Shown: positions 16,680 through 64,000 of the stretch, in pieces
Layout of the letters: every line of letters starts with the position of its first letter
Numbering within the stretch: the stretch's first letter is position 1
Assembly: GCF_026210795.1 (NCBI RefSeq)
Contig: NC_089459.1
Coordinates: 496,001 to 560,000 of the forward strand
DNA length: 64,000 nt
Source: Rhizophagus irregularis
Taxonomy: Eukaryota; Glomeromycota; Glomeromycetes; Glomerales; Glomeraceae
Direction: 5' to 3'
Position numbers and translations under genes: made by a program
Notes under the pieces: generated by a model
Database searches by the model: none
Told to the model about the DNA's origin: nothing
The model's input: only the letters and a program-made list of their open reading frames with translations

Positions 16680-18137
16680 ATGGAGTCAAAATTTTGGCCG
16701 GAGCTTATGAAAGATCTTGAACATCTTTTTGAAAATAAAGAGAATTATGACGTTATTATACAAGCGGGAGAAGAATCAAACGTACAAGAAATTTATGCTC
16801 ATTCCATAATTCTCTGTTGTCATTCAAATTATTTTCGTTCTAATTTGAAGGAAAAGGAGGACGGAAAGTACATTTTAAAGAAATCTAATATTCCATCAAA
16901 AATTTTGGAAAATATTCTCAGGTAATTTATCTCAAAATAATTTTTAAATTAATGTATACAAAAAAAAATTAAAATAATTTTAATAATAGGTTCTTATATT
17001 GCGGAAAGATTAATTTAAGTGTTGAAAGTTCTTCAGATATTGTGACTTTATAACAACGGCAAACGAATTTGAATTACATTCACTTGTAAAGCATATTCAA
17101 GAATTTTTAATTGATAATCAAGAAGAATTTATCAAAAATAATGTGGTTAAATTTCTTGAAAATATTTTTCAAAGTGATACTTTTGAACTTATACGAAACC
17201 ATTGTTTAGAAATCATCCATAAAACTCCAGATTTATTATTTGAAAATAATACTTTTTTAATGTTATCATCCCAAATGATTGAACTCATTCTTAAACAAGA
17301 AAATATTACATTAAATGAAATTGAAATTTGGAATTATTTGATAAAATGGTCATACGCTCAAAATCTTAATATTGATCAAGATCCTTCAAAATGGACCAAT
17401 GATGATATTGAAGTAATGAAACGTACCACACATAGATTAATTCCATTGATTAGATTTCAAGATATTTCTTCTGATGATTATTATGAGAAAGTATTTCCTT
17501 ATGAAGAATTACTACCAAAAAAACTGAAGGGTGAAATTATGCAATTTTATTTAGTATCTAATAGCACAACAAAAATTATTAGCTTATTACCAAAAGATCA
17601 AGGAGTGATTCAGTTATAATTAAGTCTCAATATTTTGCTATTTTTGCTAGTTGGATTGAAAAGAAAAATGATTCTTATTATAATATAAAAAATATTCCAT
17701 ATAAATTCAATTTACTTTATCGTGCTAGTAGAGATGGCGATACAGCTGCAGCATTCCATAATCTATGTGATAATGGAGGACCTACTATAGTTATAGCAAA
17801 AATTGCAAGTTCGGAACAAATAGTTGGAGGATATAATCCATTGGATTGGAAGCCGGTTATAATTAATTCAAGGTATTATAAACCAACAAAAGATAGTTTT
17901 ATTTTCTCATTTGCAGATAGAAATAACCTCCAAACTGCAAAAGTAAGTTACCCGAAAGAAAATCAACAACAAAATTCTATATATAGTAATTCAGTTTATG
18001 GGCCAAGATTTGGTGGTGGCCATGATTTATGTTGGCATCAAAATGGTACTTGGGGATGTATTCCACATACTTATTTAATCGATTTACCACGTAATTTCAA
18101 TGTGAGTGATTACGAAGTATTTCAAGTTATATTTTAA
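16680..18137 (+). pseudogene. BTB-BACK-TLDc protein, broken copy
   Basis: Exon 1 (16680-16921) and exon 2 (from 16990) are joined by a GT-AG intron at the same place as in the intact paralogue 19084-20558. Exon 1 gives a BTB domain start (NYDVIIQAGEE...IYAHSIILCCHSNYFRS). The BACK region and a C-terminal TLDc domain (LLYRASRDGD...IVGGYNPLDWK...DYEVFQVIF) follow. Two single-base frame breaks interrupt it: one near 17051, where one T seems lost in a TTATTA-type run before ACAACG, and one near 17604, before the TLDc domain. Proteins of this plan are thought to be Cullin-3-type adaptors or TLDc stress proteins. This copy can no longer make the full product. Confidence 0.85.
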
Positions 18138-25210: not shown

Positions 25211-26551
25211 CATGATTCTAATCGTTACCAATGATAACAGTTTTCTACAAAGAAAAAAAAATTGATGCAAATGCCCTGAAGTGGATGAAACTTTATTAAT
25301 AATTTTTCAAGTTCATAGTTAATCAGAAATGATGGAACTATCAAAATGCCGATATATAATAAGAAAAGTAATATATTTATTTTGGGACATCTATAGAGGC
25401 ATAAAAATCGATTAAGATGATGGTGTTCTTCTAAAAGCTAGCTGAGCAATAAAACCAATTTGCCTTATTATTACTTTGCGGAATATACGGGTTCGTTTGA
25501 TTGTAAATATTGATGATGCAAATAATGGTAGATTTAAATTTTATTAATTTTATTAGAATTTTCATTTAATTTTTCTTGCTTTTATATTTGTACAAGAAGG
25601 ATAAAAAGATTTACTAACTGGGATATCACCTTTTTATGTAATTCACAGGATCGATTTTGTTATACGCTTTTAGGGGAAATTATGTTAATATGTTTGCATC
25701 ACGAAAATGTGATCAACAGACTCAATTGGTTTGAAAAGGATAAAGGAAGAAATGGGGTTGATACTTTAATGATGTGTCAAAAGTACAAAATATATACAGA
25801 AAGAAAAAAATATCTTAATATTTTCCCTATTTTTCTTGCCAAAAATTCATTTTATTCATCAATGTGTAGATAATTGTTTAATAGAAAGTCATGATTTATT
25901 GCAACCTTATTTGCTAAATGAGTTTTTCTATAATGTGATATGATTATTTAAACAATAAAATTATCCAATATATCTTATGTAATTGAAAGAAAACTAAATT
26001 TAGTTTTAGATAATGAAAAATTCTTGTAAATAAATTATTTATTTTTATTTTAATTTATTTCTGAACATTGTCTGTTACATTAACAGGATGTTAAACCAAT
26101 TTAGCAGTACTTTAAGTTTTTTTTATTGAAAATTTTTAGTTATGTGGAATTTTGTGATTTCAATCATGTGTAATTTGTAATATAAACAAACTTAGTACAT
26201 TACTTTTTTTCTCGGTAGGATTTCTGGTTTTATTCCCTTTTAAATAAATAAATATGAGAAACATATTTGTTTTTTCTCAGTAGGCTCTCTTTTGATATTT
26301 AAAAATGTAGTTTCAAATGTTCTTTTTTGTTTTTCTAAGTAGGTTTTGTTCCCTTATTTGGAAAAAAAAATATTAACGAAAGTTTAAAAGGACAGTTATT
26401 ATATTTAAATATGTAGGCTTTCTTTCTTAGAAATGGTAAGCTTTTATTTTTTGTTTTATATTATAGGGAAAATTCTTTTACCTTGAATCAAGTAATATAC
26501 TTTTACGCTATTAAAGCTATATAATATTGTAGATATAGGAAATAATTAATT
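25211..26551. other. AT-rich intergenic DNA
   Basis: No gene supported. At 26205-26450 there are four loosely repeated T-rich tracts each ending in (C/A)(G/A/T)GTAGG (near 26214, 26280, 26339, 26415), resembling reiterated splice acceptors in plus orientation, but no matching donors are visible. Confidence 0.35.
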
Positions 26552-31782: not shown

Positions 31783-34440
31783 TTTTCATTCTACAAGTAA
31801 TTGTAAATCTCTGCATTTACCTATTATGAGAAAGAAAAAATTATTAGTAGTGTGCTAAATTTTTATTTAATGGTAAAGAAGACATAGCCAATTCCTCCTT
31901 TAGAATTAGCAGACTTTACCAATAACAAAGTAGGATTTTATCTGCTTGAGTTGGTTATCAAATGAACAAGAGAAATAAAAAAAAAAAGAAAAAAAAGAAG
32001 AAAAAAAAAGGGAATAAAAAAATAAAAATAAAAATAAAAATAAAATAAAAAAGAAAAAAGCAGGTAATTTCAAGGAATTACCCACTTTGCTCACCCTTAC
32101 CCAACCCAAACAAACAAATCCAGTACCCTCCTAAGTAAAATTTGTGAACTCCCCGACTCAAATGAGTTATCTGTTCTAATTTTGACTTAGAAAGTTACCC
32201 ACTTTGCAAATAAAAAAATACACACCTTTTTTAAAGTTTCTTGAGCCATTTACACTTTCTAAAAAATCAGTAATGCTCATTCAGAAAATTTTCATCTGTT
32301 GTCCAGTATTTCAATACAAAATAATGCTGTAATTGATAAATAATAAATACAATTCAATAATAAGAAATCAGATAACAAATATAAAGTATAAACATAAAAA
32401 AATTTTTTCACATTTTTAATACTTGATATGCATTTTTTTTCAAGAACTTCTTTAGGAAATTTCTTCATTTTACCAGTAATTGTAAATCTCTGCATTTACC
32501 TATTATAAGAAAGAAAAAATTATTAATAATGTGCTAAATTTTTATTTAATGGTAAAGAAGACATAGCCAATTCCTCCTTTAGAATTAGCAGACTTTACCA
32601 ATAACAAAGTAGGATTTTATCTGCTTGAGTTGGTTATCAAATGAACAAGAGAAATAAAAAAAAAAAAGAAAAAAAAGAAGAAAAAAAAAAGGGAATAAAA
32701 AAATAAAAATAAAAATAAAAATAAAATAAAAAAGAAAAAAGCAGGTAATTTCAAGGAATTACCCACTTTGCTCACCCTTACCCAACCCAAACAAACAAAT
32801 CCAGTACCCTCCTAAGTAAAATTTGTGAACTCCCCCGACTCAAATGAGTTATCTGTTCTAATTTTGACTTAGAAAGTTACCCACTTTGCAAATAAAAAAA
32901 TACACACCTTTTTTAAAGTTTCTTGAGCCATTTACACTTTCTAAAAAATCAGTAATGCTCATTCAGAAAATTTTCATCTGTTGTCCAGTATTTCAATACA
33001 AAATAATGCTGTAATTGATAAATAATAAATACAATTCAATAATAAGAAATCAGATAACAAATATAAAGTATAAACATAAAAAAATTTTTTCACATTTTTA
33101 ATACTTGATATGCATTTTTTTTCAAGAACTTCTTTAGGAAATTTCTTCATTTTACCAGTAATTGTAAATCTCTGCATTTACCTATTATAAGAAAGAAAAA
33201 ATTATTAATAGTGTGCTAAATTTTTATTTAATGGTAAAGAAGACATAGCCAATTCCTCCTTTAGAATTAGCAGACTTTACCAATAACAAAGTAGGATTTT
33301 ATCTGCTTGAGTTGGTTATCAAATGAACAAGAGAAATAAAAAAAAAAAAGAAAAAAAGAAGAAAAAAAAAAAAGGGAATAAAAAAATAAAAATAAAAATA
33401 AAAATAAAATAAAAAAGAAAAAAGCAGGTAATTTCAAGGAATTACCCACTTTGCTCACCCTTACCCAACCCAAACAAACAAATCCAGTACCCTCCTAAGT
33501 AAAATTTGTGAACTCCCCGACTCAAATGAGTTATCCGTTCTAATTTTGACTTAGAAAGTTACCCACTTTGCAAATAAAAAAATACACACCTTTTTTAAAG
33601 TTTCTTGAGCCATTTACACTTTCTAAAAAATCAGTAATGCTCATTCAGAGAATTTTCATCTGTTGTCCAGTATTTCAATACAAAATAATGCTGTAATTGA
33701 TAAATAATAAATACAATTCAATAATAAGAAATCAGATAACAAATATAAAGTATAAACATAAAAAATTTTTTCACATTTTAATACTTGATATGCACTCTTT
33801 TTCAAAAACTTCTTTAGGAAATTTCTTCATTTTACCAGTAATTGTAAATCTCTGCATTTACCTATTATAAGAAAGAAAAAATTATTAATAGTGTGCTAAA
33901 TTTTTATTTAATGGTAAAGAAGACATAGCTAATTCCTCCTTTAGAATTAGCAGACTTTACCAATAACAAAGTAGGATTTTATTTGCTTGAGTTGGTTATC
34001 AAATGAACAAGAGAAATAAAAAAAAAAGAAAAAAAAGAAGAAAAAAAGAAAAAAAAGGAAATAAAAAAATAAAAATAAAAATAAAAGAAAAAAGAAAAAA
34101 GCAGGTAATTTCAAGGAATTACCCACTTTGCTCACCCTTACCCAACCAAACAAACAAATCCAGTACCCTCCTAAGTAAAATTTGTGAACTCCCCGACTCA
34201 AATGAGTTATCCGTTCTAATTTTGACTTAGGAAGTTACCCACTTTGCAAATAAAAAAATACACACCTCTTTTAAAGTCTCTTGAGCCATTTACATTCATC
34301 TAAAAATCAATAATACTCCATTCAGACCATTCAGAGAACTTTCATCTGTTGTCCAGTGTTTCAATACAAAATAATGCTGTAACTGATAAAAAAAAATAAA
34401 TACAATCCAATGATAAGAGGTCGATAACAAATATATAAAA
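31783..34440. repeat. Macrosatellite array 2, unit ~680 bp
   Basis: A partial unit followed by three full units and the same terminal variant as array 1. The landmark CAGTAATTGTAAATCTCTGC recurs near 32476, 33158 and 33837, about 680 bp apart. Units are nearly identical to each other. Most length variation lies in the A/G tract after ATGAACAAGAGAAATAA. The array ends after ATTCATCTAAAAATCAATAA/CATCTGTTGTCCAGTGTTTC (34293-34360), as array 1 does, so the two arrays probably arose by segmental duplication. No LTR or other insert interrupts this copy. Confidence 0.85.
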
Positions 34441-48943: not shown

Positions 48944-50340
48944 ATTAATTATATTTTTAATCTATTAAACTATGAAATTATATTTTTAAGTTATAAATAT
49001 TAATTTTCTTTTTGTACATATGCATTTTTAAGTAAAAGTAAATTGCTTTATAACATTTAGAATTTTATTAATAAATGTGGTTACATCAATAGAGTATTTA
49101 ATCCATCCAATTAAAAGCACGCGAGGTTATTTTTTATGAAATAAAATAAAATTATATATGATTTTGATTGAAAAATTTATTTCGCCCACATTTGAGTTAA
49201 TCGGTATAATTCCTCGAATTTAAACTCAATAGTATAAATAACCTCTTTCCGCGAGGGAAACATATATTAATTTCAATGATATATACTGAATATATCGAGT
49301 TGATTTACCTCCAAGTGTATTTTAGATTATCAATCAACAATTATTTCCTTTCAGAATAAAAGATACTCGAAATTTTACAAGCTAAAGTCACACCTATTTT
49401 TAAAGTGAGAAGATTTGTAAAATGGTTGGACTTACGTTTTCTGAATTTTAGAGAATTTGGGGGTATAGTAGTTCTATCGCCAAATGGAATCATGACAAAA
49501 GACTTTCAAGAATTTGAGAAACATATTCCAAAGAAATGTTATATGAATTCATGAACATTAGGATTTAGGAGACTATTATTAACATCTCTTATTTTTATAA
49601 CAAAAAGAATTTAAATAAAAATGAAGAAATGAAGATTGGAAATCAAAGAAATCTGAAAAACAAATTAAAAAGAATTCATCTTTAATTATCGATATTAAAA
49701 TTGACGCTAAAATTGGTGTTTTTCAAAAAAGTTAAAAATAATGGAATCATGTGAAAAGTTTATAATCGATTTATTTGATTTATTTTAGATTATGCAAATT
49801 TTATAATTTTATACACTTCAAAAGCATTGCTTAGCAAAGTTTTTTGTAAAAAAATGTAGATTCTCACCATCATTTGATTTTATTGATTACTCATCAATAT
49901 CAAAGTAAAAAAAGGTATACACATATGTATTATTATTTTATACCATGTTTATAATCCAAAAAAAGAACAAAACTTTGTATATAGCAAGTAATTTGATATA
50001 TAACGGCTATTATATAAGTATATAATTATTATCTATTATTATAATTGTGTAATTGATTACTTAATTCGCAAATGATTCAATTGATAAAGTGAGTAGATTA
50101 AAGTTAGATCTTGATGTAATTTCAATTCATAATCTTTTACATATAACACATAATATCTATTCATATTGAATTTGAAATATACACAGGTTAAAGGTTCCAT
50201 TATTGATTTGCACAACATTTAAGTTCACGTCTAGAAAGACTGCTGTCAAAAGCATGTCTTTCACGGTATTCCCTTGTTAAAATTGTAGCGTATTATCATT
50301 ACAAAACTTTTTCACTTTCTAAAAACTCCAGTCGCATGTG
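48944..50340. other. Intergenic; one short open relic
   Basis: Mostly AT-rich. At about 49364-49554 (+) a 60-codon frame encodes ILQAKVTPIFKVRRFVKWLD, LRFLNFREFGGIVVLSPNGI and MTKDFQEFEKHIPKKCYMNS. It lacks an ATG at its start and has no recognised domain; it is probably a relic exon. Confidence 0.35.
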
Positions 50341-50357
50341 ACTTGGCCTAGATTATA

Positions 50358-50700
50358 AAGGTAATTTCATAGTCTATAGGTATCTTTATAGTCTATAGGT
50401 AACTTCATAATTTACCAGTAACTTCATAATCTGTTGGTAACTTCATAGTCTACCAGTAATTTCATAATCTATTGGTAACTTCATAATATAGCGGTGATAT
50501 CATAATCTAATTTCATAATCTGGTAGTAACTTCATAACCTATTATTCATGATCTGATAGGAACTTCATAACCTACTTATGGATAGCTCCTTTGCATTTAT
50601 GACATTGTTTCAACTGTTTCCTGTATAATATGGTGGTATCTTCATAGTCTAATGGTGACTGGTAGTGCTTTAATTTAATGATAATGTCATGATCTAATAG
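50358..50700. repeat. ~21-bp minisatellite (GGTAACTTCATAATCTAC-type)
   Basis: About fifteen imperfect copies of GGTAACTTCATAATCTA(C/T)(C/T) with T/A and A/G variants. Spacing between TTCATA words is mostly 21-23 bp, becoming irregular on the right. Confidence 0.75.
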
Positions 50701-51160
50701 TGAGTGCTTTCTTCTTGTTCCTAATCCGTTTACATATAGTAATAAAATCTATATTGTTAATTCTGGCTTTCCAGTCATCTTTGAATACCTGGTTCTATAA
50801 TGAGGGTGCCAGCTCTCTATGCTAGTTTGGATACTAGATCTATATTAAGAATTTGCACCTTTTTGGTTGCCTTTCTAGATACTGAAGTGGTATAAAAAAA
50901 GGTGATGGGTGGTGCAGTAAATTTGTGATTAATTTCAGCTGACATTATGCCATAATTCTAGCTGATCTTAAAACTTATAATTTGGATCTAACTTGGTAAT
51001 ATAATGCGTCATGATAGTCACATGATAGCTAAGCTACCGTTATTATTTGATTAATCATTATATTGATCAATTAATTTGCCTCGCAATGATCCTACTAACA
51101 TATCACTCAATATTGTTTTATAAAACAGATCCTTAAAAAATCTTCTTATCATGTAAAAAA
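50701..51160. other. Intergenic
   Basis: No gene recognised between the minisatellite and the SANT-like pseudogene. Confidence 0.4.
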
Positions 51161-51164
51161 AAAT

Positions 51165-52185
51165 TAACTATAGAGTTCTCTAATGCCCAACTTCACGTTC
51201 TTATTGATAAACGAAAAAATAGAAATGCAGAGTATCATTCTACTACAAATAAGAAGAAGTATCTCTTTTGAAACAAGATTGCTGAAAAATTAAATGTTCA
51301 GGAAAAGACTAATTATTTCACTGGTGACGAATGCTATAAAAAATTCTTAAGCCTCACAAAAGCTTTTTATGTAAGTAGAGTTGGTTGATAGGATATTTCC
51401 CTTGAAGACCTGTCTGGTTAATATACTTATTATTATTTTTTTTAGACTGCCAAGAGAATAAAAGAAGAAACTGAAGACAAAAGGAGTATAATTGGAGAAG
51501 AGCTTTATGAAGAGTTTTCGACAAATAGTGTTTAGAATCGAATATATTCGAATATACTCGAGTATTCATTTAATAATATTCGAATAAGTTAAATTTCCTT
51601 TTATAGTAATGATTTACATAATTTTTAGCCTAAATTATGATTTTAACTCAGTTAAATTTAAGGATTTAATGCCCAATTAGAATTTTAACTATACTATATC
51701 TGGCTAAATGAATATTCAAATAACCACTATGCTTATTCGAATACTCAAATATACTCGAGTTATTCGAATAACTGTTACATGATTCCAAATACTATCGACA
51801 AAGTTCTGGCAAAAACCAGGTATATATATTTTTTCTGGTAAACTATTTGAGAGAGAAACTTTTCATTATTAATAACATATCTATTTTATTTGATAGAATC
51901 ACAATTCAGAAAAACATGTAGTGGAAGCGTTAAGTGGTTAAGGGATCAAATAGGGCGAGTTTATCATCTCGCTCATCAATCTCTAAATCTGAACGAATAT
52001 CAGATATTGCAGATTTATTCGAGATCTCCTCTCCAGCATTAAGACCGGTAACACTATCCATGAAAGCATTTGCCGTTTCTAGGCCTATTACTTCTACACT
52101 TCCCTCCTTTTCACAAAATGCAAGTGTAATAAATGTTACTATTAATTATGGTGGTAATAATTCCAAAAGAACTGGTTCAAACTAG
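51165..52185 (+). pseudogene. SANT/Myb-like DNA-binding gene, broken copy 1
   Basis: Block A (to 51370) encodes AQLHVLIDKRKNRNAEYHST, then KYLF, a TGA where the paralogous position is Trp, and KIAEKLNVQEKTNYFTGDEC YKKFLSLTKAFY, ending at GTAAGT. Block B (51446-51819) encodes TAKRIKEETEDKRSIIGEEL YEEFST, is split by the 51526-51794 MITE, and resumes with FWQKP to a donor. Block C (from 51897) contains ALRPVTLSMKAFAVSRPITS and PSFSQNASVINVTINYGG. The spacing of aromatic and charged residues fits a trihelix/SANT-like DNA-binding fold. Lesions are a TGA stop, the insertion and a frame change in block C. Confidence 0.65.
51526..51794. mobile_element. 269-bp hAT MITE inside an exon
   Basis: The termini TAGTGTTTAGAATC and (complement of the right end) TAGTATTTGGAATC are inverted. 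The perfect 8-bp target TCGACAAA is duplicated at 51518-51525 and 51795-51802. Inside, ATATTCGAATA and ACTCGAGT palindromes are clustered at both ends. Removing the element and one target copy restores a continuous reading block that aligns with the paralogue at 53380. Non-autonomous. Confidence 0.85.
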
Positions 52186-52424
52186 TAGAACTAGGCTAAA
52201 TATATTATTTTTCTGGAGCGCAAACCAGAAGTTTTTATATAAATGGGTTGGGATTATAAAAATTTTTTCTTTACCATTACAGAACGTATTTGTATAAAAA
52301 GCTAAAATTAAAGGTTCTTTTGGACCAAATCTTTAAGCAAATAAAATATTTTATTGTAATATCACTTTGTTGATATGCTCTTATTGCAAAAAAATCAGAA
52401 TAAAGAATATATCATTTACATTCT

Positions 52425-52528
52425 CTGTACCTTCTTCTGGTTCAAAACCCGTGACACCCTCATTTTCTCAAAGTGTTAAAAAAATTAATATTTTTATTAA
52501 TAACAAAAAGCCTGATAATCAAGAGTGA
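52425..52528 (+). pseudogene. C-terminal remnant of a third SANT-like gene copy
   Basis: It encodes SSGSKPVTPSFSQSVKKINI and FINNKKPDNQE before a TGA. PSFSQ followed by an Ile-Asn-x-x-Ile-Asn-Asn pattern matches the ends of copies 1 and 2 (PSFSQNASVINVTINYGG, PSFSQNTNVINVTINYNS). The upstream domain is not recognisable. Confidence 0.5.
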
Positions 52529-53009
52529 TTTTATAAATAGTAACAAAAAAAAGAACATTTAATTCGTGATTCGTTTAAGAAGCAGAGAAAAATTTTTATT
52601 TTTTAGAATCTCGCAGACTTGAGTGATATATAACTTAACAATGAAACGCTTTCTCCTATGCAGAAAGTATATTAAAAAATATGTCTTTTCATATATCTGC
52701 CGTTAAGGCGCTTCGCATAAACAGATCGTAAATTAATTTACTTTGCTATTTTGTATTAAAGCAGGATTTTTTCATATCTATAAATAACTAGTTTAGTAAA
52801 TTTTATATTTTTTTATAACTGTAAGGCAATAGATTGTAAAGCGAATGAAATATTTTATCATAGTATCACTTGAAATTTATTCGATTGTTCAGATGAAGAC
52901 AGATTAATAATTTTTTGATTTGGCTAAATTAGACCAGATCATCATGCTCAACTAAACTATTCGCTATGATCAGAATACATTATTCGATATTTTATAAAAC
53001 TGGCCCAAT

Positions 53010-53691
53010 TTTTACAGAATTCTTTCACCAATGTAAACATATCTTCTTCTACTAAGTATTTTGATGCTCAACTTCATCTTCTCATCAATGAACGTAAACA
53101 AAGAAATTTCAAATATCATGCCACCACAAATAAGAAAAAATGAGTTTTCTGGGATGATATCACTAGTAAGTTGAACAAACAGGAAAATACTAACTATTTC
53201 CTAGGTGAGGACTGCTACAAGAAGTTTTTAAATCTCACGAAAGCTTTTAATGTAAGTATATCTACTTGGATTTTACGTGGAATCTAAAATTAATATACTT
53301 ACTATTTTTTAGACAGCAAAAAGATACAGAGAAGGTACTGAAGAGCTTGGTTAGAGAGAAAATATATGATGAGTTCTCAACGTTATTCTGGTTAAAACCA
53401 GGTATGTTTTTGTGAAAAATAAGTGGGTGATTATTTCTAAATTAACACGATTCTCACCATTTGCTAGAATTTCTATTCAAGCAGATACATAACGAAAATG
53501 TTGGGTCAAGTTTTGAGCAACAACCATTGGAAAAGACTGTCAAAAAACCTCCTAAATTATCATCACTCACAACATCAAATCCATCAACTGTCAAAACAAC
53601 TAATACCTCCAGACCCGTAATTTTAACAATTCCTTCTTTTTCACAAAATACTAACGTAATCAATGTCACTATTAATTATAACAGTACATGA
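53010..53691 (+). pseudogene. SANT/Myb-like DNA-binding gene, broken copy 2
   Basis: Block A (to 53251) encodes NVNISSSTKYFDAQLHLLIN, ERKQRNFKYHATTNKKK, a TGA, then VFWDDITSKLNKQENTNYFL and CYKKFLNLTKAFN. Block B (53313-53401) encodes TAKRYREGTEE and, after a one-base shift, LVREKIYDEFSTLFWLKP. Block C (53468-53691) is clean: EFLFKQIHNENVGSSFEQQP ... PSFSQNTNVINVTINYNST. The gene structure is the same as copy 1, 1.9 kb upstream, so it is a tandem duplication. A stop and a frameshift disable it as read. Confidence 0.65.
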
Positions 53692-53857
53692 GAAGAGGAT
53701 TAGAGTTTTTTCCATTAATTTAGTATAGTGGTCGAAGGATATGTTTCATATCAATCAACTCTAACTTTTTATGTATTTTTTACCTGTATTTATGCTCACA
53801 AAAAGATTTATCATAAGGGAGTACAAAACCTAATTATTTTTAAAAGATCTTCAATAA

Positions 53858-54064
53858 AAAAGAATATGGAAGTTCTGTCTGGGTGATCGTGAAAAAGCTG
53901 AGAACATAAGAGATTTTGTATGTGAAACAATAGAAGGAACATATTCATCGATCGATAGTAAATTTAAAATTTTATTGTTTTATCATGTGGTATTGGACGC
54001 AGTAGAAAAAACAAATGTTAAATATAATAAAAGTCTTGAGGATTACATTGCAGATTTGCAGTAA
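53858..54064 (+). CDS. Orphan ORF, 68 codons, unknown
   Basis: Open from a preceding stop, without ATG at its start: KRIWKFCLGDREKAENIRDF, VCETIEGTYSSIDSKFKILL, FYHVVLDAVEKTNVKYNKSL, EDYIADLQ. The balanced composition looks like genuine protein sequence, perhaps the last exon of a gene whose start is lost. No family recognised. Confidence 0.3.
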   Translation, partial: KRIWKFCLGDREKAENIRDFVCETIEGTYSSIDSKFKILLFYHVVLDAVEKTNVKYNKSLEDYIADLQ

Positions 54065-54246
54065 TACAAATGAATTATTTACTATGTATATACTAGAGAG
54101 TATTCTGTTTTGAAATTTCTTCTAGCAAGTTCCAGTTGCTATAATTTTGCGATTACAAGTGGAATATGTTCAGAAGTATAAAAATGCCCTCCTTTCGCTC
54201 ATCATAACATTTTTCCTGTAAATCGCATCTCAAAAAAAAAATACTA

Positions 54247-55196
54247 ATGGAATCAAAAAGTTCTAATAACACCCCTCCACTTGTTCCATAGACCATTGAA
54301 GAAGAAATATTTGGGCTTCAACATGAGGGTATACTCAATAGAAGTATTCCTTATCACACTATTTAACTCACTGCACTTATCAATTCTCAAAGGGAATCCG
54401 CTCGAGAGGGATCTGAAACATGTTCTTTGTGTAATAAATTCGATCTATTATTCGAACCTAATGGAGCTAACCTGTGAGATTGTCCTGTCTTCATAGCTTT
54501 CATCTTAGATGTATTATTATTTCCTTAAAAAAAAATACGACATGTTCTCGTTGTCAACGACTTATTTATCTTGGCGAGGATAATGATGTAAGGTTAAATC
54601 CTCAAGAAGAAGATCATAGGGTTAAAAAATTTTTTAAAGAGTTATCCAACAAACCACAAGACTTTAATCCGTCACCAGTGACAAATATAGAAACGGAGAA
54701 CTCTACAACTCCAGATATAGTGTTCGTCGAATTACACAATAAAATACTTGTTGCTGAAAGGATTCTTAAAGAAAAAACACTTAAAGTATCCCACATGGAA
54801 TATGAAATCCTTGACTCATACTATCCTCTCGGAGAAGCATTGGAGAAGAAATTGGCTGAATTTAAATCTATTCACCCTGGCCAACCTGTGAAAATCTTGC
54901 TTAATAATGTAGAAATTAAGTGACAATTTCCCTCTGAAATGACTTGTAATGTCTTTAACAAGAAAAAGCACTCAGCCAAAAATATTTACAACATATTCAA
55001 AACAGAAGGTTTGGGAAGAGATGAGATCAAGCAAATTAGGAGAATTTCACTATTATCTTTTGGAAAATTTACTGATAAAGAAATAAAGATCATTCAAGAA
55101 AAGGTTAGAGCGAATTCTTCTCGACCAAATTGGCTTGAAAATCAATTTAATGATTTAGATCTAAATAGGGAGTCGGTACCAATGCAGACTGATTGA
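54247..55196 (+). pseudogene. RING-H2 finger protein, broken
   Basis: One plus-strand frame from ATG 54247 (MESKSSNNTPPLVP) runs with in-frame TAG, TAA and TGA through IEEEIFGLQHEGILNRSIPY, SAREGSETCSLCNKFDLLFE and PNGANL. After a one-base shift it continues RLSCLHSFHLRCIIISLKKN TTCSRC. The CxxC ... CxHxxHxxC ... CxxC spacing is a RING-H2 zinc-binding domain, typical of E3 ubiquitin ligases. A helical region follows (DIVFVELHNKILVAERILKE) and, past a TGA at 54920, a further conserved-looking block (IYNIFKTEGLGRDEIKQIRR to SVPMQTD). Four stops and one shift make it non-functional. Confidence 0.6.
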
Positions 55197-55730
55197 ATAA
55201 CATCATTGGCCGGTGCTGTGCATATTTACATATAGATTCTAAAAAAATGATCACGCTTCTAATTTATTTTTTTAATATAATAGAAAGCATTAGCTCAAAC
55301 ATATTTACATAGATTCTACTATATGATCTGTTTTATTTTTATATGTAATAGAAAAGCATTAGCCGAACATATTTAATAAATGATCTGATTTATTTTTATT
55401 TTTTCAAAGATCGAAATTTTTGGTTATAATTTTTATCATGTGATCAGAAAATGATTGGCTATTAATTATCTAAACATATGATTTTGTCACGTTTCTTTTG
55501 TAACACAATTAATGAGCATATTAAAAATTACGCAAATCAATTACCATTTCGAACTACTTGTGCTATGCAAACAAATCTGACGCAACAACATCTACATTAT
55601 GTAATATAATTACGCCATAAAAATGGATCTCGATTTATACAAGACAGATAAAAAGTCACAAATCATTTGGAAAGAGATCAACGGATCACATCTATGATGT
55701 CATTTGGAAAATTTCATTCGTATTAACATA
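55197..55730. other. AT-rich intergenic DNA
   Basis: Two loosely similar copies of AGAAA(A)GCATTAGC(T/C)(C/G)(A)AACATATTTA occur at about 55283 and 55350. No gene. Confidence 0.4.
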
Positions 55731-55734
55731 ATAA

Positions 55735-56442
55735 TGCATTAATAATAATAATCATGAAATAAATTGGAGGCAAGTTTGTCTTCAAAAATTAGTAACACGA
55801 GATGGCAACATTCTACGAGAAGAACGGAGGCTGCATAGAGAAAAAAATGGTGTGCAGCAGGTTGACCCTGAAGATATTATCACGTGGATCACGTATATTA
55901 AAGAAGAAAAACCGCGAAAACGTTCCGATATTTCAGACGAGAAGTGGAATGAAGTGATTGCTAAAACGGACGCCTTGCTAATCGTTGATAAGGATAAAAA
56001 AAGTACGTGTATCTTGATCTAATACAAATGCTTAACCATGTTAAACTCAAACTTAATTATTGCTAGATAAATGTTCCGGCGAAAAAATGATCGATACGAG
56101 AAATGATATTTGCAACATAATTGGAATGTGGTACAATCTTTTATTAAAAACTTACAATACCCACTTACCATATAATAAAAGATTCGTGAGTTGTATGAGG
56201 AAATGACTAAAAACAAAAGTGTTGAGGGGAGAGTTTATGTTTTAGCTAAAGATCATTATGGGATGACAGCTGATGAAGTGGGATCATTATTTGGGTACAA
56301 ATTCAAGCGAAACCGTACTGTTCACAAAAAGTCCCTAGAAAAGGGTAAAACTAAACCAGTACTTTCTCAGCAATTGCAAAACGCTCTCGAACTATTGCAA
56401 TTAGTAACTGATCAGCCATCGGATTTTCCGATAGCATTTTGA
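55735..56442 (+). pseudogene. Two-exon unknown gene, start and phase unresolved
   Basis: The first block (55735-56002) encodes INWRQVCLQKLVTRDGNILR EERRLHREKNGVQQVDPEDI ITWITYIKEEKPRKRSDISD, ending at a GTACGT donor. The second (56182-56442) encodes IRELYEEMTKNKSVEGRVYV LAKDHYGMTADEVGSLFGYK and ends QPSDFPIAF. The apparent splice (AAAA|GTACGT ... AAAAG|ATTCG) is off by one base, and no initiator ATG is in frame. The protein is charged, soluble, and helix-rich; DEVGSLFGYKFKR could be a helix-turn-helix. It may be a decayed gene or have a missed intron border. No family recognised. Confidence 0.4.
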
Positions 56443-56716
56443 AAAATGCGCAAAATGGGTGTATAGAAGTAGTTAAACTTTAGTTTTTATTTTCTAATAA
56501 ATATACATTTGATATACGACTATTTTATTGAACGATTAATTTCGTGCGGTTCTTTAACATTTTTGTTTATTCTTATTCTTCGTTAAAATTATAAATAATT
56601 GATCGTAAGGAAAAAATTAAGGGGACAAAGCTGCTTGGGTGTTTTGCATCTGCTTCGCACAATACTGTTAACTATATGTATAAAGAGAATGTTGTAACTA
56701 GTAGCGGAATCTGTGC
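56443..56716. other. Intergenic between convergent genes
   Basis: AT-rich spacer between the plus-strand relic and the minus-strand zinc-finger gene. Confidence 0.4.
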
Positions 56717-57861
56717 TCAAGGTCCTCCTTCCATTAATTCAAAGGCTTTACTAAAATATTCGACAGCTTTTGAACCTTCGTAGGCTTTACGAAATGCCTC
56801 CCACATAAGTTCGTCCTGTTGATCCTCAGACAATATTTCTCCTTGTGGCGCGTCAGGTAAATCATCACAGTTTTCATTATCCAAATCATATTCGACTTGC
56901 CTCGGTAATGATGAGATAGCTTCCATTGCCATATAAAGTAATTCTTGCACGGTCTGATCATGTTTATTACGTCCATTTACAAGAACATCACGGTAAGATA
57001 ACTTTGTGTTATTATTCGTTGGTATAAACTCGTTTTTTTTGTCTTTTCCTTTAATAGAAATGGTAGCTTCATCTTTGCTAGACTTTTTCTCCACACGAAC
57101 ATCATTTTTATCTTCAGTTTTCCCTTCAACAAGAAAAGAACATGTGTCTTCAGAAGGACAAGTGGAAATATAATTCATCATAATATAATAACAATCCAAA
57201 AAGCTATTTAATACAATACAGATAATTGTAGCAACATACCTAAGTTCAATTTTTCATTTTCATCACATAATGTATCATTATCGGTGTCAGAGTCCACTAC
57301 ACTATCATTATGGTTGATAATCAAATGTCGGTTTAGCGCATCAAGAGAACAAAATCGCGAGCCAGTGCAAATTGGACACTAATATAAAAAAGTCACACAA
57401 AAAAAGTATCAGGTAGTGTTGTTAAACAGCGCAAATAAACTATTGGTATAACATCGCAGCAACTCTTGTCGCGAAACAAACCACGCCAATTGATAACACT
57501 ATTATCAGGTAGATATTTGTTTGAAATTACCTTGAATGGTCTTTGACGAGAGTGTCTATGTAAATGTTCTGCAAATATAACAATAAATTTAATTTTTACG
57601 ACATCAGCGGAACTAGTAAAGTCAAAAGTACTTGACATATTTTTCTATACCTTCTAATTTAGTAATACTACTTTGATGCTTATTGCAACCTTCCCACGGA
57701 CATATATAAATTGGATCTCCTATAGATGCTCTGTTGCAAGAATTGATGTCGTGTTCGTCGATGTGCTTTCTAAGTTTCTCCTGGGTTTCGAAATGTTGTG
57801 GTTTTGAATGAGAATATAACCACTTACAGACGAATGGCATCAGATTAGCACTTTCAGTCAT
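56717..57861 (-). CDS. C2H2 zinc-finger protein, 272 aa
   Basis: Four minus-strand exons join in phase: 57861-57651, 57568-57531 (38 nt), 57378-57240, 57147-56717 (819 nt). Finger 1 is degenerate (FVCKWLYSHSKPQHF...LRKHIDEHD: one Cys and an HxxxH pair). Finger 2 is classical and spans the exon junction (YICPWEGCNKHQSSITKLEE HLHRH). An RQRPFK linker leads to finger 3 (CPICTGSRFCSLDALNRHLI INH). The rest is acidic and Ser/Lys-rich with no domain. The CxW spacing in fingers 1-2 recalls the PacC/Rim101 and GLI/Zic groups, but the lost Cys in finger 1 argues for a diverged member. A nuclear DNA-binding regulator is the likely role; its target is unknown. The reading frame is intact. Confidence 0.8.
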
Positions 57862-57935
57862 GGTAGTATGGTAGATTATATCCAGAAAAATATTTTGAGT
57901 GGTTGATATGTTACACAGTTGCCTCGTGCTAACCG

Positions 57936-58186
57936 GCCGATGGACGGTAAGTTATTCCAGAAGTTGATTCGTGAAGGTTAATAGACTTTCGGATTATTTA
58001 GAAGATATTGGGAACGCATACGTCTGTGAATTCGAATTAGATCCCTTAGCTGACTTCTACTATCCGGCTCTAATTCCACCTTTATCTATCCTAGCTAATA
58101 GATCAGATATTCGTAAAAAGATTCCTATTAGTGTAGAATCTGCTGTTATGGGAGGAGTGAGTCTATTTACTCTAGAAAAAAAATAA
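57936..58186 (+). pseudogene. Coding relic with one frameshift, unknown family
   Basis: QLPRANRPMDGKLFQKLIRE G ends at TAA. One base over, the text continues in the frame containing LEDIGNAYVCEFELDPLADF YYPALIPPLSILANRSDIRK and SVESAVMGGVSLFTLEKK. The join point near 57975 implies a one-base change. Both ends are truncated. No domain named. Confidence 0.4.
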
Positions 58187-58239
58187 ACGATCTTCACTCC
58201 AGAATCTAATCCAAATGAACTATTCCATTGATAACTTGA

Positions 58240-58600
58240 CTACGTTAATAGGAATAACTTGGGAGCAAGAAGAGATGATATGTCTCTGCTATTCGATTTA
58301 GTGTTTTATCGCCAAACCCTGTGCTAAAATTTAAATCTAAATGGGCTATATTTGGGAATATACGCGAAAAGCCATTGAATTTTTTATCTGAAAGTGGATA
58401 GTAGTTCAAAATTTCTAGATGTGTTAGATTTAAGCTATAAACCGGCTTTTGCCTTTTACATACTATTTTCATAAATTTTTTCAATTGAGAGTGGCATTTA
58501 TTCTTCCACTTTAGCTCGATGCGTTTCCACAGAACAGGAGCACCGCATCTGTACCACAATCGGGAAACAAATAGAGTGATAGAGTGGGATAGAGTGACTT
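58240..58600 (-). pseudogene. F-box/LRR-type protein fragment
   Basis: On the minus strand, TLFVSRLWYRCGAPVLWKRI ELKWKN matches the second half of F-box domains in Rhizophagus F-box proteins (pattern L(F/Y)xxRxW...AxPxLW+). LTHLEILNYYPLSDKKFNGF and FPNIAHLDLNFSTGFGDKTL are leucine-rich repeat text. A stop lies upstream near the ACTCTATC direct repeat (58580-58600) and the LRRs end abruptly after AETYH. Both ends are missing. Intact relatives would act as SCF ubiquitin-ligase substrate receptors. Confidence 0.6.
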
Positions 58601-58720
58601 ATCTACTGCTAAGAAATGTAAAATATGTTCTAGTAATTCCTGTATATTAAAAATACTTGTATGCACCATAAATAATATATGCTGTATCTTTAATCAAAAA
58701 AATAAATTTTCTGGGTTGGA

Positions 58721-58927
58721 TCAGACTCCCAGATATCCACTCAGCTCAAAGTAATTGAACACGCCTACAACTCCATCCTGTCTTATGTTCTTAACAGTGA
58801 TTAAGCCAGTGGCCCTATCATATGTGTGTTCATATTTGACCGGATTGCATAATGGCAAATACTGCGTGGGGTTAGTAGTGAACTTACCCATTGTCTTGCG
58901 CCAGTTATTCCTTGATTTTTTAGCCAT
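58721..58927 (-). CDS. Small ORF, 68 aa, of the decayed mobile element
   Basis: ATG to TAG frame on the minus strand: MAKKSRNNWRKTMGKFTTNP, TQYLPLCNPVKYEHTYDRAT, GLITVKNIRQDGVVGVFNYF, ELSGYLGV. A basic N-terminus then a likely beta-rich segment. It lies downstream of the recombinase and the 59034-59497 frame in the same orientation. The protein-like composition suggests a real small gene, perhaps DNA-binding. Unknown family. Confidence 0.4.
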   Translation of the reverse strand: MAKKSRNNWRKTMGKFTTNPTQYLPLCNPVKYEHTYDRATGLITVKNIRQDGVVGVFNYFELSGYLGV

Positions 58928-59033
58928 ACTAATAATTTATCTGATTCAATTATCTTTGATCAAAAATATGCAAAGTGCCTAATTCATCTCTTTAAACTAC
59001 CACTCGCTTAACCTTTCTTGGTTGTGTCCTACT

Positions 59034-59497
59034 TTATTGCTTAGCCAAAGGCGCAAAAGCATGAGGGACAGCCTTTTCTTCTCTTACCCAGTACCCATAG
59101 GATCTCTCAATTATCTCAACCGAATCAGAATCTTCAGAAAACTCAGACAAATAGGCAGAACCCTTACTTTTTTCATTAATCAGTATGGGAACTGTTTTAT
59201 GTATTAAGTCAATCACAGTCTCCCTATCCACACATTCATCCAGTAGTTGTACATATAGATCTTCTTTATTTCTTTCCAATCTTCTTACCATCTTTTTAAA
59301 GCTATTATACTCAGAATGATAATTATCCAGTTTTTTCTCGAGCTTTCAAATCTGTCCAGAGAGTGCTTTATATGCTCTTGCATTCTGCTCATCCAGTTCA
59401 AATAACCAGGCTGTTTTCTCTGTACCTCTGATTTCTTTTTGCTCCTAGCTATACTATCAGATAAATGCTTTTGATCGGTTAATTCCATTCTGGCCAT
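59034..59497 (-). pseudogene. Coiled-coil ORF of the decayed element, one frameshift
   Basis: The first part (59497 to about 59340) is MARMELTDQKHLSDSIARSK KKSEVQRKQPGYLNWMSRMQ EHIKHSLDRFE. A one-base shift near 59340 leads to KKLDNYHSEYNSFKKMVRRL ERNKEDLYVQLLDECVDRET and ends in VREEKAVPHAFAPLAKQ. The heptad-like Leu/Ile spacing suggests a coiled coil of about 150 residues in all. It has the same strand and spacing as the recombinase, 50 bp upstream. No family recognised. Confidence 0.45.
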
Positions 59498-59860
59498 TTT
59501 TGTGATATTTTATATATGCTAGATCTTAGGCGAATGAAAAAATAAAATTTAATAAATGTTGTCTAACTCATCTATGTGATTAGTTTTCGTCAAAGAGCTT
59601 AAATGCCATTGCCTAATCATAAAGCTGTCCTCTTTTTCAAAATTGACTATAGTATAGTTTTGCGCTGGGGAGGCATAATTGTCTGGCGAATATCGAAGGG
59701 CTTGACTGGCGATGCTCATGCATAGCTTCTGATAAATTCTTCGCACCATTCAATATGACCGCAAATACTGCCCCTAATTTGCGCAAATAGCTAGAAAGAA
59801 GTGGTTTACCAGTTTCAGGAAGAAATCTATCTTTTTTTCAAAAATGTATTAAACTATTTA

Positions 59861-60155
59861 CACTGGTCAAAAACCAATATATCAGGTAGTAGATATGTAT
59901 CAGATATGTACCCGATATGTGTAGTATTAATGCAGAAAATTGGGTACCCGATATGTGTAAGATATATGTAAATATATATATCATATACATATCGGGTACC
60001 GATATGTATATGATATGTATATGATATGTAGACGATATATATATTTACACATATCTTACACATATCAGGTACCCGATTTTCTGCATTAATACTACACATA
60101 TCGGGTACATATCTGATACATATCTGCTACCCGATATATTGGTTTTTGACTAGTG
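59861..60155. mobile_element. Long palindromic fold-back element, CACTA-like
   Basis: CACTGGTCAAAAACCAATAT on the left and CACTAGTCAAAAACCAATAT on the complement of the right begin a near-perfect palindrome whose arms are about 130 bp each, meeting near 60000. GGGTACC and GATATGTAT words repeat within the arms. TTA flanks both ends (59858-59860 and 60156-60158). CACTR termini plus a 3-bp duplication suggest CACTA/EnSpm; some Tc1/mariner termini look similar. The transcript would fold into one long hairpin. Confidence 0.75.
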
Positions 60156-60225
60156 TTAACTCCTGGCACTTCTGGATCTCTCAACTGTCCATAAGAAATT
60201 GCATTCTGAATCCAAGTAAGGCATA

Positions 60226-61148
60226 TGGGCTGATTTGTTTACTCTGCATTAAAAAGAGTTATTGATTGATTTTCACAATTTTTGTTACTCAAAATTGTTT
60301 TGTAATACCAAAAAATCATCTGATTGATGATCACTTAACTAAATAATAAGTTGAACAAAAATTTACATTTGTGAAACTTAAATTATTAAATGTAAAAGAG
60401 CTGTGAAAAAACTCATTTCACTAATAAAAAACTCATTTCTCATATATATGGAATTTTTAACATATATTATTAAAAAGTAAGTATATTTTAATAAAAAATA
60501 AAGTAAAATAAAAATTTATATAGCCTTAGTAGCTATAAATGTTTATAAAAGTATAATAAAAATATCATATAAAAAATGGTATCATAATAGATATTTTCAA
60601 ACAATAAAAATAATTATTTTATGTCAGAGTTTGTATTACCATCTTTAAACGCAAATATATCAAGATTCATTGATCTGTTTTCTATAATTTTAGGCTCGTT
60701 GGAAGCTCTTGTTCTAGACTTTATAGGCGAAAAAAGAGCTCGCCAATTGAATCATTAGATCCAGAAATATTTACATTTAAAGTTGAAGTATGAACTTTTT
60801 AACATGCTTAAATGCAAATATCTTGGGATTCACTGATCTATTTTGTATAAATTTAGGCTCTTTGGAAAGCCCTTAATCTGTTCTATATGAACGAAAAAAG
60901 AGCTTGCTGATTGGATCACTGGATCTGGAGATATTTACGTTTTAAGTTAAGATATAAATTTTTAATATATATAGTAAGTGCTAAGAATTATATTAATTTA
61001 AAAGAAATATTTACCAAATTATAGTATAATAACATTAAATAAAAATTTTTTAATACTCATTCCCAATTTACTGTATATTATATAGTATTTTGTATAATAA
61101 AAATGTAATAAAATTAATATTTTAATTAAAGGTAGACAAATCAGTCCA
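60226..61148. mobile_element. 923-bp TA-flanked inverted-repeat element in the recombinase
   Basis: TGGGCTGATTTGTTTAC on the left and TGGACTGATTTGTCTAC on the complement of the right; TA flanks at 60224-60225 and 61149-61150 fit a Tc1/mariner-type target. Recombinase coding text stops at its right edge (ERAKLL) and resumes at its left edge (WIQNAIS). No transposase frame. It contains the duplicated block 60645-60970. Confidence 0.7.
60645..60970. repeat. Two tandem copies of a ~165-bp unit
   Basis: GATTCA(T/C)TGATCT(G/A)TTTT, TAGGCTC(G/T)TTGGAA, GA(A/C)(G)AAAAAAGAGCT(C/T)GC, GAAATATTTAC/GAGATATTTACGTTT occur twice in the same order (about 60650-60805 and 60815-60965), with roughly 80% identity by eye. 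Confidence 0.65.
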
Positions 61149-61971
61149 TATAGAGAAGTTTAGCCCGCTCTTCATCTCTTTTTAACGATCTAAATATCTG
61201 AGGATTATCCTATTGGCCTCAGTTTTTTGTGTATTCAGTTACACTTCCATTAGATATGCGCAAGTCTTTAATTTCGGTGGGACGGATGCAGAGCATTATT
61301 ATTATATCGGCTAAGGCTTGTACATCAGATGTGTTAGACACATCATAGAAATTGAGTCTCTTCTTAACTGATTCTAACGAAAAGTAATCTGAAAAATCAA
61401 TCCCTTTATTTTTACGTTAATCCCTATGCTTTATTTGAATTTTATTAGATACGCAGGTTGTATCTTTGTTTAATATAGCAGAGATTATCTTTTCTGGGCA
61501 TTAAGTCACAAATTTTATTTTTCATTACACCATTTGGAGTTTTTGCAACTCTCTTCAGAACTTACTAAGACGGGATGTTGTGGCGATAGGATTAAGGGAT
61601 GTTATAGTTAAAGCTTTGGCTATCGCCTTTACTTCTTTTTCACTAAGATTATTTCGAACAATACGCTAGACTATACTTTCGATGGTTTCTCTGTCTGGGA
61701 TGATGTTGAATATTTGGCATATATTAACTTTCCCTGTTTCTTTGGGAATTACCTGACTTTTACTTCAGCAAATTTTCTAATCAGGAACTAATACAAACGC
61801 CTGCTCTTTACTAAAACTATACCCTTTCTGAAAGCGCTGGCGACCCTTGTCTCTTTTCAGTTTATCTGTCAAAAGCTTGAGTAATGCTAGGACGTGCTGG
61901 CTAAGTTCTTCATTACTCATATTTTTATTGAGTTTGTGCTCTGCAACATACTTTGTTACAATCGTGGACAT

Positions 61972-62150
61972 AGCTGTGTAAATATAGGTTGTGAAGTAAC
62001 TACTAGATTTTGCGTAATTGTTAGATTATTATATATCTGAAAAACTTCAATTCAAAAAAAAAATATTCTGACAATTCTCTATATGCAGACCTCACTTATA
62101 ATCGGTAAAAAATAATAATAATAATTTAGATTTATATATCGCCTAATTGT
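61972..62150. other. Spacer between helicase and recombinase relics
   Basis: AT-rich, no feature. Confidence 0.4.
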
Positions 62151-64000
62151 AAAGAAAAAAAAAGACCCTCTTATTCAAACACCTTATTTATAAACTGGCT
62201 TCTTATTTGCTCTTTACCAAAGCATACCATTCTCCTGGAATATACTTACATTTTTTTGCCATTCCTCATCAGTATCAAACCATGAGGATGTGAGTCCTTT
62301 ATCTTCAAATTCACATCAGATAATCTCTTCGCCTATTAATCTTTCTCGTACTGTCATTTCCATATGTTCTTTGGGGTCTTCTCCACCCTCTTTTGCATAA
62401 CCATACATTCGTGTATCTATTTTCATTTTATATTGAAATGCGGTAAAATCAAGCCTGTCTTCTTCAGTGATGGTTACAAAGACATCTGGATCCTTTTCAA
62501 GTTCGACTGCCTTTTTTCTGAGACACTCTTCTCACTAAGCTCTCGACAGAAGTATAGCAGATAATACTTCATTAAGCTTGGGTAAATTGCGCTTGACACT
62601 TATTTCTTTAGGAGATAAATTCACCACTTTGTTGCTAGATTCGTTAAATTTGGAAGGCTTATTAACTTTGGACTTATTGATTAGTGACTCAGGCATTTTA
62701 GAAATCTCAGATATGCCAGATATTGAGGTGACTGCCTGACTGGAACTTTGGCTTACTCTGATACATAATCAAAAAGGTCTTGAGTCGAATCACCCTACTT
62801 ATCTGCCTTTTTATTTTTATTAGTATTAGGTGGAGGCGTATTCTTTTCTGGAAGAGTCAGGATTATTTTGGAGGAATGATTTCTGGCATATTGAATATGA
62901 GTATATTTGTGGTCTCATGAGCCAGCAATTCATTTTGAGGTATATCAGAAAATTCTTCGATATTACCTAAACCAGATTCTTGGAGCTTGACTACGATCTT
63001 GAAGCAGTCAAGAATATACTGATATACTCTTATTTTATTATTCTATAAACATGTCCGATCAATACTAATTAGTGAAAATTTCTTACCATCGACTTTACTA
63101 ATTAATGGCTTTTTTTCATTAAACCTGCACTATTTGAGATAATTCTGGTATACTTTTTCACAGCCAAACCTGCTAATTTAATTTTCAGGCCAAGTTGTAA
63201 TATAATTAATTATAAATCGAATAGGATTAGAAAGTTGCTCTCGTATTGTTTCTATCTTTATCTTAGTTGCAGGAATTTTTCCTGAACTCCAATTTGATAA
63301 ATCACAGCTAAGAAGATATGACATGACTACTCTAAGTGCATTAGCCAGGTGCATCAGGATGGTCTAGAATATCCTTAGCTGATCAAAATATGGTATATTA
63401 CCTCTACAGCATGCAGAGACATTAAAACAAACTATACAAAAATCACTTATATTTATTTTGAGTGGTGCATCCTGATTGCTTGTAATTATATACCTAGCAT
63501 AATTATTTATTCATATAGTTTCAAGGTCTTTGCGTTCTATAGTTACCATTCGTTTTGTTATAAGTGATTTGAGATGTCCATTAAATCTATACCATTCCCA
63601 CTAGACATCCCAGTCTTATTTATTATAACAATAAGCTTTCGAGCTTGAATGGCACTATTAAATCGTCCAAGAATTTTTTCCAAATCTGACGTTGTGAAAT
63701 GGAAGTATAACCCTAAGACTTTGTCACCAATAAAGTCAGTAATAATATTTTTTCTGCACTATTGCAATGTAGATTTTAGTACCAAAATTGTTCAAGGCTT
63801 ATTTTCTGGCTTCTGCACTAAATATGTCTACCAGTTCCAGATATACTCATTAAACTCTTTGTTTTTATCACAAATTACATTCGATATATACCAGAGAATC
63901 AGATCTATAATTTCTTTATTAATTTCTATCACTGGTTTAGCCAAAAATCCTAAGAAAAGGTTAAAGAACTTTGTATTGAGAGCTGGAGTATTCAGTGAAT
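62150..64000 (-). pseudogene. DUF5906/NrS-1-like primase-helicase relic, runs off the window
   Basis: Minus-strand text from the window edge: FFNLFLGFLAKPVIEINKEI, ILVLKSTLQ (P-loop position, lacking a clean GKT/GKS), NIITDFIGDKVLG, TTSDLEKILGRFNSAIQARK LIVI, LMDISNHL, then MSYLLSCDLSNWSSGKIPAT KIKIETIREQLSNPIRFIIN. This is the superfamily 3-type helicase module seen in a large Rhizophagus ORF family (DUF5906, NrS-1 polymerase-like). A polar C-terminal region follows: ILDCFKIVVKLQESGLGNIE EFSDIPQNELL, then KDPDVFVTITEEDRLDFTAF. At least fifteen stops and several frame changes kill it. It lies upstream of the recombinase in the same orientation. Helicases of this type unwind DNA for replication of plasmids or viruses. 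The 5' end is outside the window. Confidence 0.65.

Follow-up and report, generated by a model that had tools for sequence, protein, structure and literature searches.

In this study, we ask what kind of mobile element left the cluster of coding relics at the end of a 64,000-nucleotide stretch of the Rhizophagus irregularis genome (RefSeq assembly GCF_026210795.1, contig NC_089459.1, positions 496,001 to 560,000, here C31:496001-560000; hereafter, the window). An initial annotation, made from the letters of this stretch, had read four minus-strand relics, namely, a DUF5906 helicase, a tyrosine recombinase, and two small open reading frames (ORFs), as a single decayed element, self-replicating and integrating, in which a helicase travels with its own integrase. 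Based on searches of the whole 146.7-Mb assembly (32 contigs), we conclude that the relics very probably mark one end of a large virus-like DNA transposon related to Polintons (Mavericks), present here as a decayed copy, and we read this element as a self-replicating transposon with a swapped replication module. We call it Polinton-related, and not a Polinton, because it shows neither the protein-primed polymerase nor the 6-bp duplications of that group. The earlier claim thus survives in part: copies are integrated with target duplications and carry a replication gene set, but the element is a structure of 36 to 86 kb with an rve integrase of its own rather than a pair of helicase and integrase.

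Ends, insertion sites and gene order across the genome

Two copies, on contigs C30 and C21, define the boundary of the element, in that their homology begins at the same base, the outermost one of a perfect 50-bp palindrome. The 26-nucleotide core of this palindrome, searched with up to two mismatches, occurs at 44 places in the genome compared to none for the same pattern reversed, and 24 of these places form 12 close pairs lying 36 to 86 kb apart. The flanks of these pairs, read by eye, carry a 5-bp target duplication that is exact in 11 cases and agrees in four of five bases in the twelfth (C8), and the flanking 5-mers differ at all 12 places. In the C21 copy (37.7 kb, 26 proteins), each palindrome forms the tip of an inverted repeat, and the two repeats, 2.03 kb long, are 98.5% identical. 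Counting the 24 paired ends and two single ones, 17 of the 26 palindromes that were read are perfect over 50 bp. Palindromes outside the pairs, several of them with no listed element gene within 60 kb, could be isolated ends, remnants of truncated copies, or short non-autonomous elements.

The 12 palindrome-bounded elements share their gene content: every one contains a recombinase-like match, an rve match and an A32-type ATPase match, a Gag-like match is present in 11 and a helicase match in nine, and the order and relative orientation of these genes are constant. Random intervals of equal length hold the combination of recombinase, ATPase and rve in a mean of 0.11 of 12 cases (maximum 2 of 12 in 2,000 trials). 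Further, 23 of the 42 recombinase matches of at least 47 bits have a listed rve or ATPase match within 45 kb, compared to a mean of 3.6 for random points; these linkage counts draw on 87 of 150 ATPase matches and 41 of 91 rve matches, the same lists serving elements and random controls. The proposal that helicase and recombinase belong to one element is borne out as well. Among the 68 recombinase-like matches in the genome, 25 have a helicase within 30 kb, on the same strand in 24 cases, when the 150 helicase matches scored among 161 candidates in a six-frame search are considered. The initial annotation had suggested asking how often full copies lie 1 to 3 kb apart on one strand; 22 of the 68 recombinase matches lie 1.9 to 3.1 kb downstream of a same-strand helicase (two of these being fragments of a single gene).

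The copy in the window

The copy that gave rise to the question is a 17,882-bp relic that runs from window position 50330 to C31:564211, 4.2 kb past the window end (L053 denotes the stretch that holds this end). Its parts within the window are the following:

50325..50329, no strand: ACTCC, the target site duplication on the right flank; the other copy of it lies outside the window at C31:564212-564216 (L053 5212-5216)
50330..51018, plus strand: right terminal inverted repeat (TIR), shortened; it matches its left counterpart in L053 at 92.0% identity across 665 columns
51019..57925, no strand: interior without tblastn match to the 26 C21 proteins; fragments of a weak RING-like ORF and of others
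57926..58277, plus strand: relic of a conserved element ORF of 195 amino acids (aa), in two pieces of 69% and 94% identity
58278..58639, minus strand: relic of an element-borne F-box/LRR gene, 75% and 44% identity; F-box-like plus LRR in the C21 copy
58721..58936, minus strand: 71-aa ORF of the initial annotation, with no relative among the C21 proteins
59022..59444, minus strand: relic of a conserved small element ORF, 53% identity over 147 columns; 163 aa in the C21 copy and 137 aa in the C30 copy
59583..61971, minus strand: relic of the tyrosine-recombinase-like gene, in pieces of 45 to 76% identity to the C21 gene
59857..60159, no strand: foldback insertion, resembling a miniature inverted-repeat transposable element, inside the recombinase relic; 137-nucleotide arms, 93% complementary
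62217..63995, minus strand: relic of the DUF5906 helicase, C-terminal part, continuing past the window to L053 2168 (C31:561168)

Aligning flanks in search of shared ends and target sites had been suggested from the outset, and both were found, the window copy being flanked on its two sides by the exact 5-bp duplication ACTCC. Its left end, at C31:564211, is a perfect 52-bp palindrome whose sequence is unlike the common version and whose 28-nucleotide core occurs at a single genomic place when up to three mismatches are allowed; as single-stranded DNA it folds at −26.6 kcal/mol compared to −4.2 kcal/mol for shuffles, as any perfect palindrome would. At the right end, most of the palindrome is gone and the outermost 14 bp are left, the loss having apparently occurred between two short direct repeats. 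The two inverted repeats have diverged further than those of the C21 copy, which makes the window copy the older or the less homogenised of the two.

The helicase relic aligns piecewise, at 40 to 69% identity, with a 981-aa open frame elsewhere in the genome, and in the six-frame search its place reaches 37.9 bits against DUF5906 with one internal stop, above the curated cut-off of 27.6 bits; the identification as a helicase of this family is therefore upheld, although the lone window piece compared with DUF5906 stays under the curated cut-off (E value of 0.0038). The recombinase relic is interrupted by the foldback insertion and by an AT-rich stretch, the latter containing a tandem duplication of about 164 bp at 60636-60963 whose units are 73 to 81% identical. 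The two small ORFs fared differently, since that at 59444-59022 is the relic of a conserved element gene and that at 58936-58721 is unmatched among the C21 proteins. Overall, the relics are real and not a chance arrangement, since their order is repeated at other places in the genome, but what had been seen is only the tip of the element, with further relics at 58639-57926. Compared with the C21 proteins by tblastn (E values up to 0.001), the window and L053 gave no match to the polymerase, rve, ATPase or Gag-like protein. F-box/LRR ORFs follow the recombinase-like gene in the window (58278-58639) and in other copies (L051 8675-9771 and L052 8346-10074), and in the C30 copy a retropepsin-like ORF, noticed by eye, also lies at this position.

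Proteins of the large family and of a smaller relative

The Pfam scan of the C21 copy covered 20 of its proteins or protein pieces. It places the rve integrase (PF00665, 7.5e-9) and the A32-type packaging ATPase (Pox_A32, PF04665, 2.9e-6) over their cut-offs, and it assigns the helicase to DUF5906 (1.9e-18), with Pox_D5 just below cut-off (7.4e-4). The copy also carries a family B DNA polymerase (DNA_pol_B, PF00136, 9.7e-45, with an exo1 exonuclease domain at 1.2e-14) that has no match to the protein-primed family PF03175, as well as an F-box/LRR gene; ten further ORFs gave nothing above the Pfam cut-off. The C-terminal half of the polymerase matches the PDB chains 8ywg, 9l8u and 9l8t at 4e-135 to 3e-134 (8ywg, 4.3e-135), the next other chain following at 1.4e-17, and the N-terminal half matches these three alone at E values up to 1e-6. 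The three entries, titled just "DNA polymerase," presumably represent the African swine fever virus enzyme. The gene was found at its predicted place in two of two further elements (79.5% identity over 200 residues and 60% over 166) and lies near the far end in all three copies checked. The helicase matches PDB entry 6k9e, labelled "Primase" (3.4e-8), which we take to be the phage NrS-1 protein, and PHROG families named "DNA primase" (5.1e-20), the best of which align only at residues 436-708, the helicase part; it is probably a primase-helicase, whose putative primase domain would lie in the N-terminal part. Next to the rve gene, at L060 1919-5210, are a Gag-like ORF and an aspartic-protease-like ORF, recognised through weak Pfam matches (0.0038 and 0.015, respectively), with a weak match to a CCHC zinc knuckle (0.0019) between them. 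A PDB search with the Gag-like protein returned no solved relative below an E value of 0.16, and mostly coiled coils.

The recombinase-like protein exists in the genome as open frames of 384 to 389 aa. In five aligned proteins, one of which shares 121 of 344 aligned residues (35%) with the reference, R232, K251, R322 and Y363 are invariant, and the order and rough spacing of this R..K..R..Y pattern resemble those of Cre. The histidine of the LRHS motif is lost in the most distant of the five proteins, and the histidine of box II is absent. The weak matches in PHROGs were to function-unknown families and a single tail-fibre family, those in Pfam were to unrelated families, and hhalign found nothing against Cre, lambda Int or TelN, from a shallow alignment (effective 1.6 sequences). 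We regard the protein as a probable tyrosine recombinase, a name that rests on the conserved motif pattern. A match of the recombinase-like protein to a viral contig (L092; 28% identity, E value of 1e-5 among candidates) was set aside as chance, the other genes of this contig looking phage-like and the contig giving no C21 protein match below an E value of 0.2.

A second, smaller family is represented by a copy at C15:4111876-4125211 (L090/L091) with a nearly textbook Polinton gene set: a polymerase with a weak PF03175 match just below cut-off (4.9e-5), a chromodomain (9.3e-18) and rve domain (1.3e-8) in one protein, Pox_A32 (1.2e-10), an aspartic protease (3.2e-8) and a DUF5906 helicase (4.2e-19). 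No recombinase-like match was found within the 18 kb examined. Beside its rve gene lie relatives of the Gag-like and protease genes of the large family, at 28 to 34% identity, the Gag-like protein of this copy having no Gag match in Pfam. Since this block adjoins rve in both families, it looks old rather than like a late retrotransposon insertion, and the name Gag is itself weakly based. The smaller family yields dozens of ATPase matches of 42 to 44% identity with frames near 400 to 411 aa, which suggests many copies.

Alternatives, mechanism and known systems

One alternative is an ordinary Polinton into which a retrotransposon, bringing Gag and protease, and a recombinase gene were inserted as passengers. 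The nearly textbook smaller family and the weak Pfam match of the Gag-like gene fit this idea; yet, the Gag-protease block beside rve in both families argues against it, as do the 18 of 41 tabulated rve matches (of 91) that have a Gag-like match within 3 kb, on the opposite strand in 18 of 18 cases, and the large family is without a match to a Polinton-type polymerase. We consider passengers quite improbable.

Quite improbable, too, is that the copies are fragments of asfarvirus-like giant virus genomes left by repeated infection. The polymerase is far closer to 8ywg than to other enzymes, and A32-type ATPases and D5-type helicases are also giant-virus marker genes, but TIRs, exact 5-bp duplications, rve and a constant gene order are the marks of a transposing unit, and asfarviruses are not known to have rve, Gag-like or F-box genes. 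Zhao et al. (2023; PMC10640383) report 15 to 33 asfarvirus-type polymerase genes per R. irregularis genome and take them as signs of infection; their screens saw no A32 or D5 in five strains, so that the polymerase they observed was without these neighbours.

A further alternative, which we consider very improbable, has the recombinase act as integrase on the palindrome as its attachment site; the initial annotation had likewise spoken of a helicase with "its own integrase." A palindrome beside the recombinase-like gene would fit site-specific recombination, and palindromes are present at both ends; against this, the duplications are 5 bp long and different everywhere, as with DDE/rve enzymes, and rve accompanies the recombinase in all 12 bounded elements. 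The variable duplications thus point away from the recombinase as the insertion enzyme, and together with the rve gene they make insertion by rve, with a 5-bp stagger, most likely. The same duplications and gene content rule out a Crypton as the sole explanation. Finally, a Crypton-like transposon with the recombinase and an unrelated helicase element that by chance decayed next to each other would be compatible with the window copy alone, with the lack of a recombinase profile match and with the 43 of 68 recombinase matches that have no listed helicase within 30 kb, but are extremely improbable given the recurrent same-strand spacing, the linkage to rve and ATPase in every bounded element, the window copy's own ends and target duplication, and the 12 different flanking 5-mers, which also counter segmental duplication of one place as the source of the linked copies.

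Several observations weigh against our reading of a Polinton-related transposon. Three of the 12 pairs are without a listed helicase, the elements on C1 and C3 each have two helicase matches, and the recombinase of the C1 element is 20 kb away from the element end, elsewhere about 6 kb. Twenty of the 44 palindrome places are unpaired, and nine of the 26 palindromes read are imperfect. The C21 copy alone was read end to end, and its scanned proteins show no Pfam match to a double jelly-roll capsid or a cysteine protease, both of which are missing in some known Polintons. For the helicase, Pfam, PHROGs and PDB matches cover the middle and later part alone, with none to an N-terminal primase. Searches of Pfam, PHROGs and PDB matched the recombinase to no recombinase profile; the initial annotation had tied the single-element idea to such a match, and the idea holds instead through linkage. 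Scans of viral contigs with the helicase, polymerase, ATPase and rve gave no match, and no free form was seen.

How such an element could move can be sketched from its genes. Judging by the families of these proteins, it would be copied as linear DNA by its own polymerase and helicase. Because the polymerase is not protein-primed, another way of copying linear ends would be needed, and the palindromic tips could serve by folding to hairpins. Insertion of the new copy, with a stagger of 5 bp, would then fall to the rve integrase, while the recombinase-like protein may resolve joined copies, multimers or the palindromic tips, and the ATPase may package the DNA, possibly with the Gag-like protein. 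There are four distinct perfect versions of the palindrome (one that is common, and one each in C5, in the C30 copy at 2792410 and in the window copy), and as their differences are mirrored in both arms, it is symmetry that is kept and not sequence. This upkeep of symmetry has its exceptions: in C8, a change present in the outer arms at either end is missing from the inner arms; in C15, C21 and C23, one inner arm departs from symmetry at 20 to 22 bp from the centre; and the palindromes of C3 and C9 have further mismatches. The departure at this distance in three elements looks as if a cut or repair had occurred at a fixed place. A more far-reaching claim, which we find possible but doubtful, is that the family represents a new class of fungal integrating element in which an asfarvirus-type polymerase was traded in, a Gag-protease block replaces the jelly-roll capsid, and hairpin palindrome ends would be resolved in a protelomerase-like manner by the recombinase-like protein.

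Compared to known systems, the large family has TIRs, an rve integrase, an A32-type ATPase and a target duplication in common with Polintons/Mavericks, including those of Glomus intraradices (R. irregularis), but differs from them in its polymerase, of the asfarvirus kind and not protein-primed, its recombinase-like gene, its palindromic tips, its length of 36 to 86 kb and its 5-bp duplications. The target duplication of Polintons is 6 bp. Cryptons share a recombinase-like gene in a fungal genome, whereas TIRs and rve, which Cryptons are not known to have, are present here. Polinton-like viruses, according to two papers (PMC10120064 and PMC7805220), have in common with the large family a primase-helicase or polymerase, a recombinase or rve, an ATPase, TIRs and, in some, duplications of 5 to 7 bp; their recognition rests on a major capsid gene, which we did not recognise here, and the large family combines a recombinase-like protein, rve and a long DNA polymerase. 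The asfarvirus-like endogenous region of strain 4401 (PMC10640383) shares the polymerase type and apparently the species, but is a single insertion of 1.5 Mb in which A32, D5 and major capsid were not found, in contrast to the shorter, repeated units with TIRs described here. The main text of that paper does not contain the words Polinton, Maverick or integrase. Other papers mention R. irregularis Polintons without a detectable capsid gene (PMC7805220) and list Maverick and Crypton families for this species (PMC8647823 and PMC11075540). A survey of titles and the beginnings of abstracts, with most subscription journals outside it, yielded no description of this element.

If our reading is true, many of the polymerase genes of asfarvirus type reported for each R. 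irregularis genome may be explained by the element; these scattered genes would be, at least in part, transposon genes and not each the trace of an infection by a giant virus, and the way of counting viral signals in fungi would change. The element would further represent a Polinton-like element with a swapped replication module and palindromic tips, in which end maintenance becomes testable, and some of the repeats that are hard to classify in this genome, about half of which is reported to be repetitive, may derive from it.

Elsewhere in the window, a rise in G+C had suggested that the element fills it from about 30 kb, an idea abandoned when its ends proved to lie at 50,330 and C31:564,211. 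Positions 25361-25717 match the interior of the C21 element (17648-17991, joined pieces) at 74% DNA identity over 368 columns and are perhaps a stray fragment. Further, at about 32019-33414 a 32-nucleotide stretch that matches the flank of the C21 element occurs three times at a spacing of about 682 bp, which suggests a tandem array near the change in G+C.

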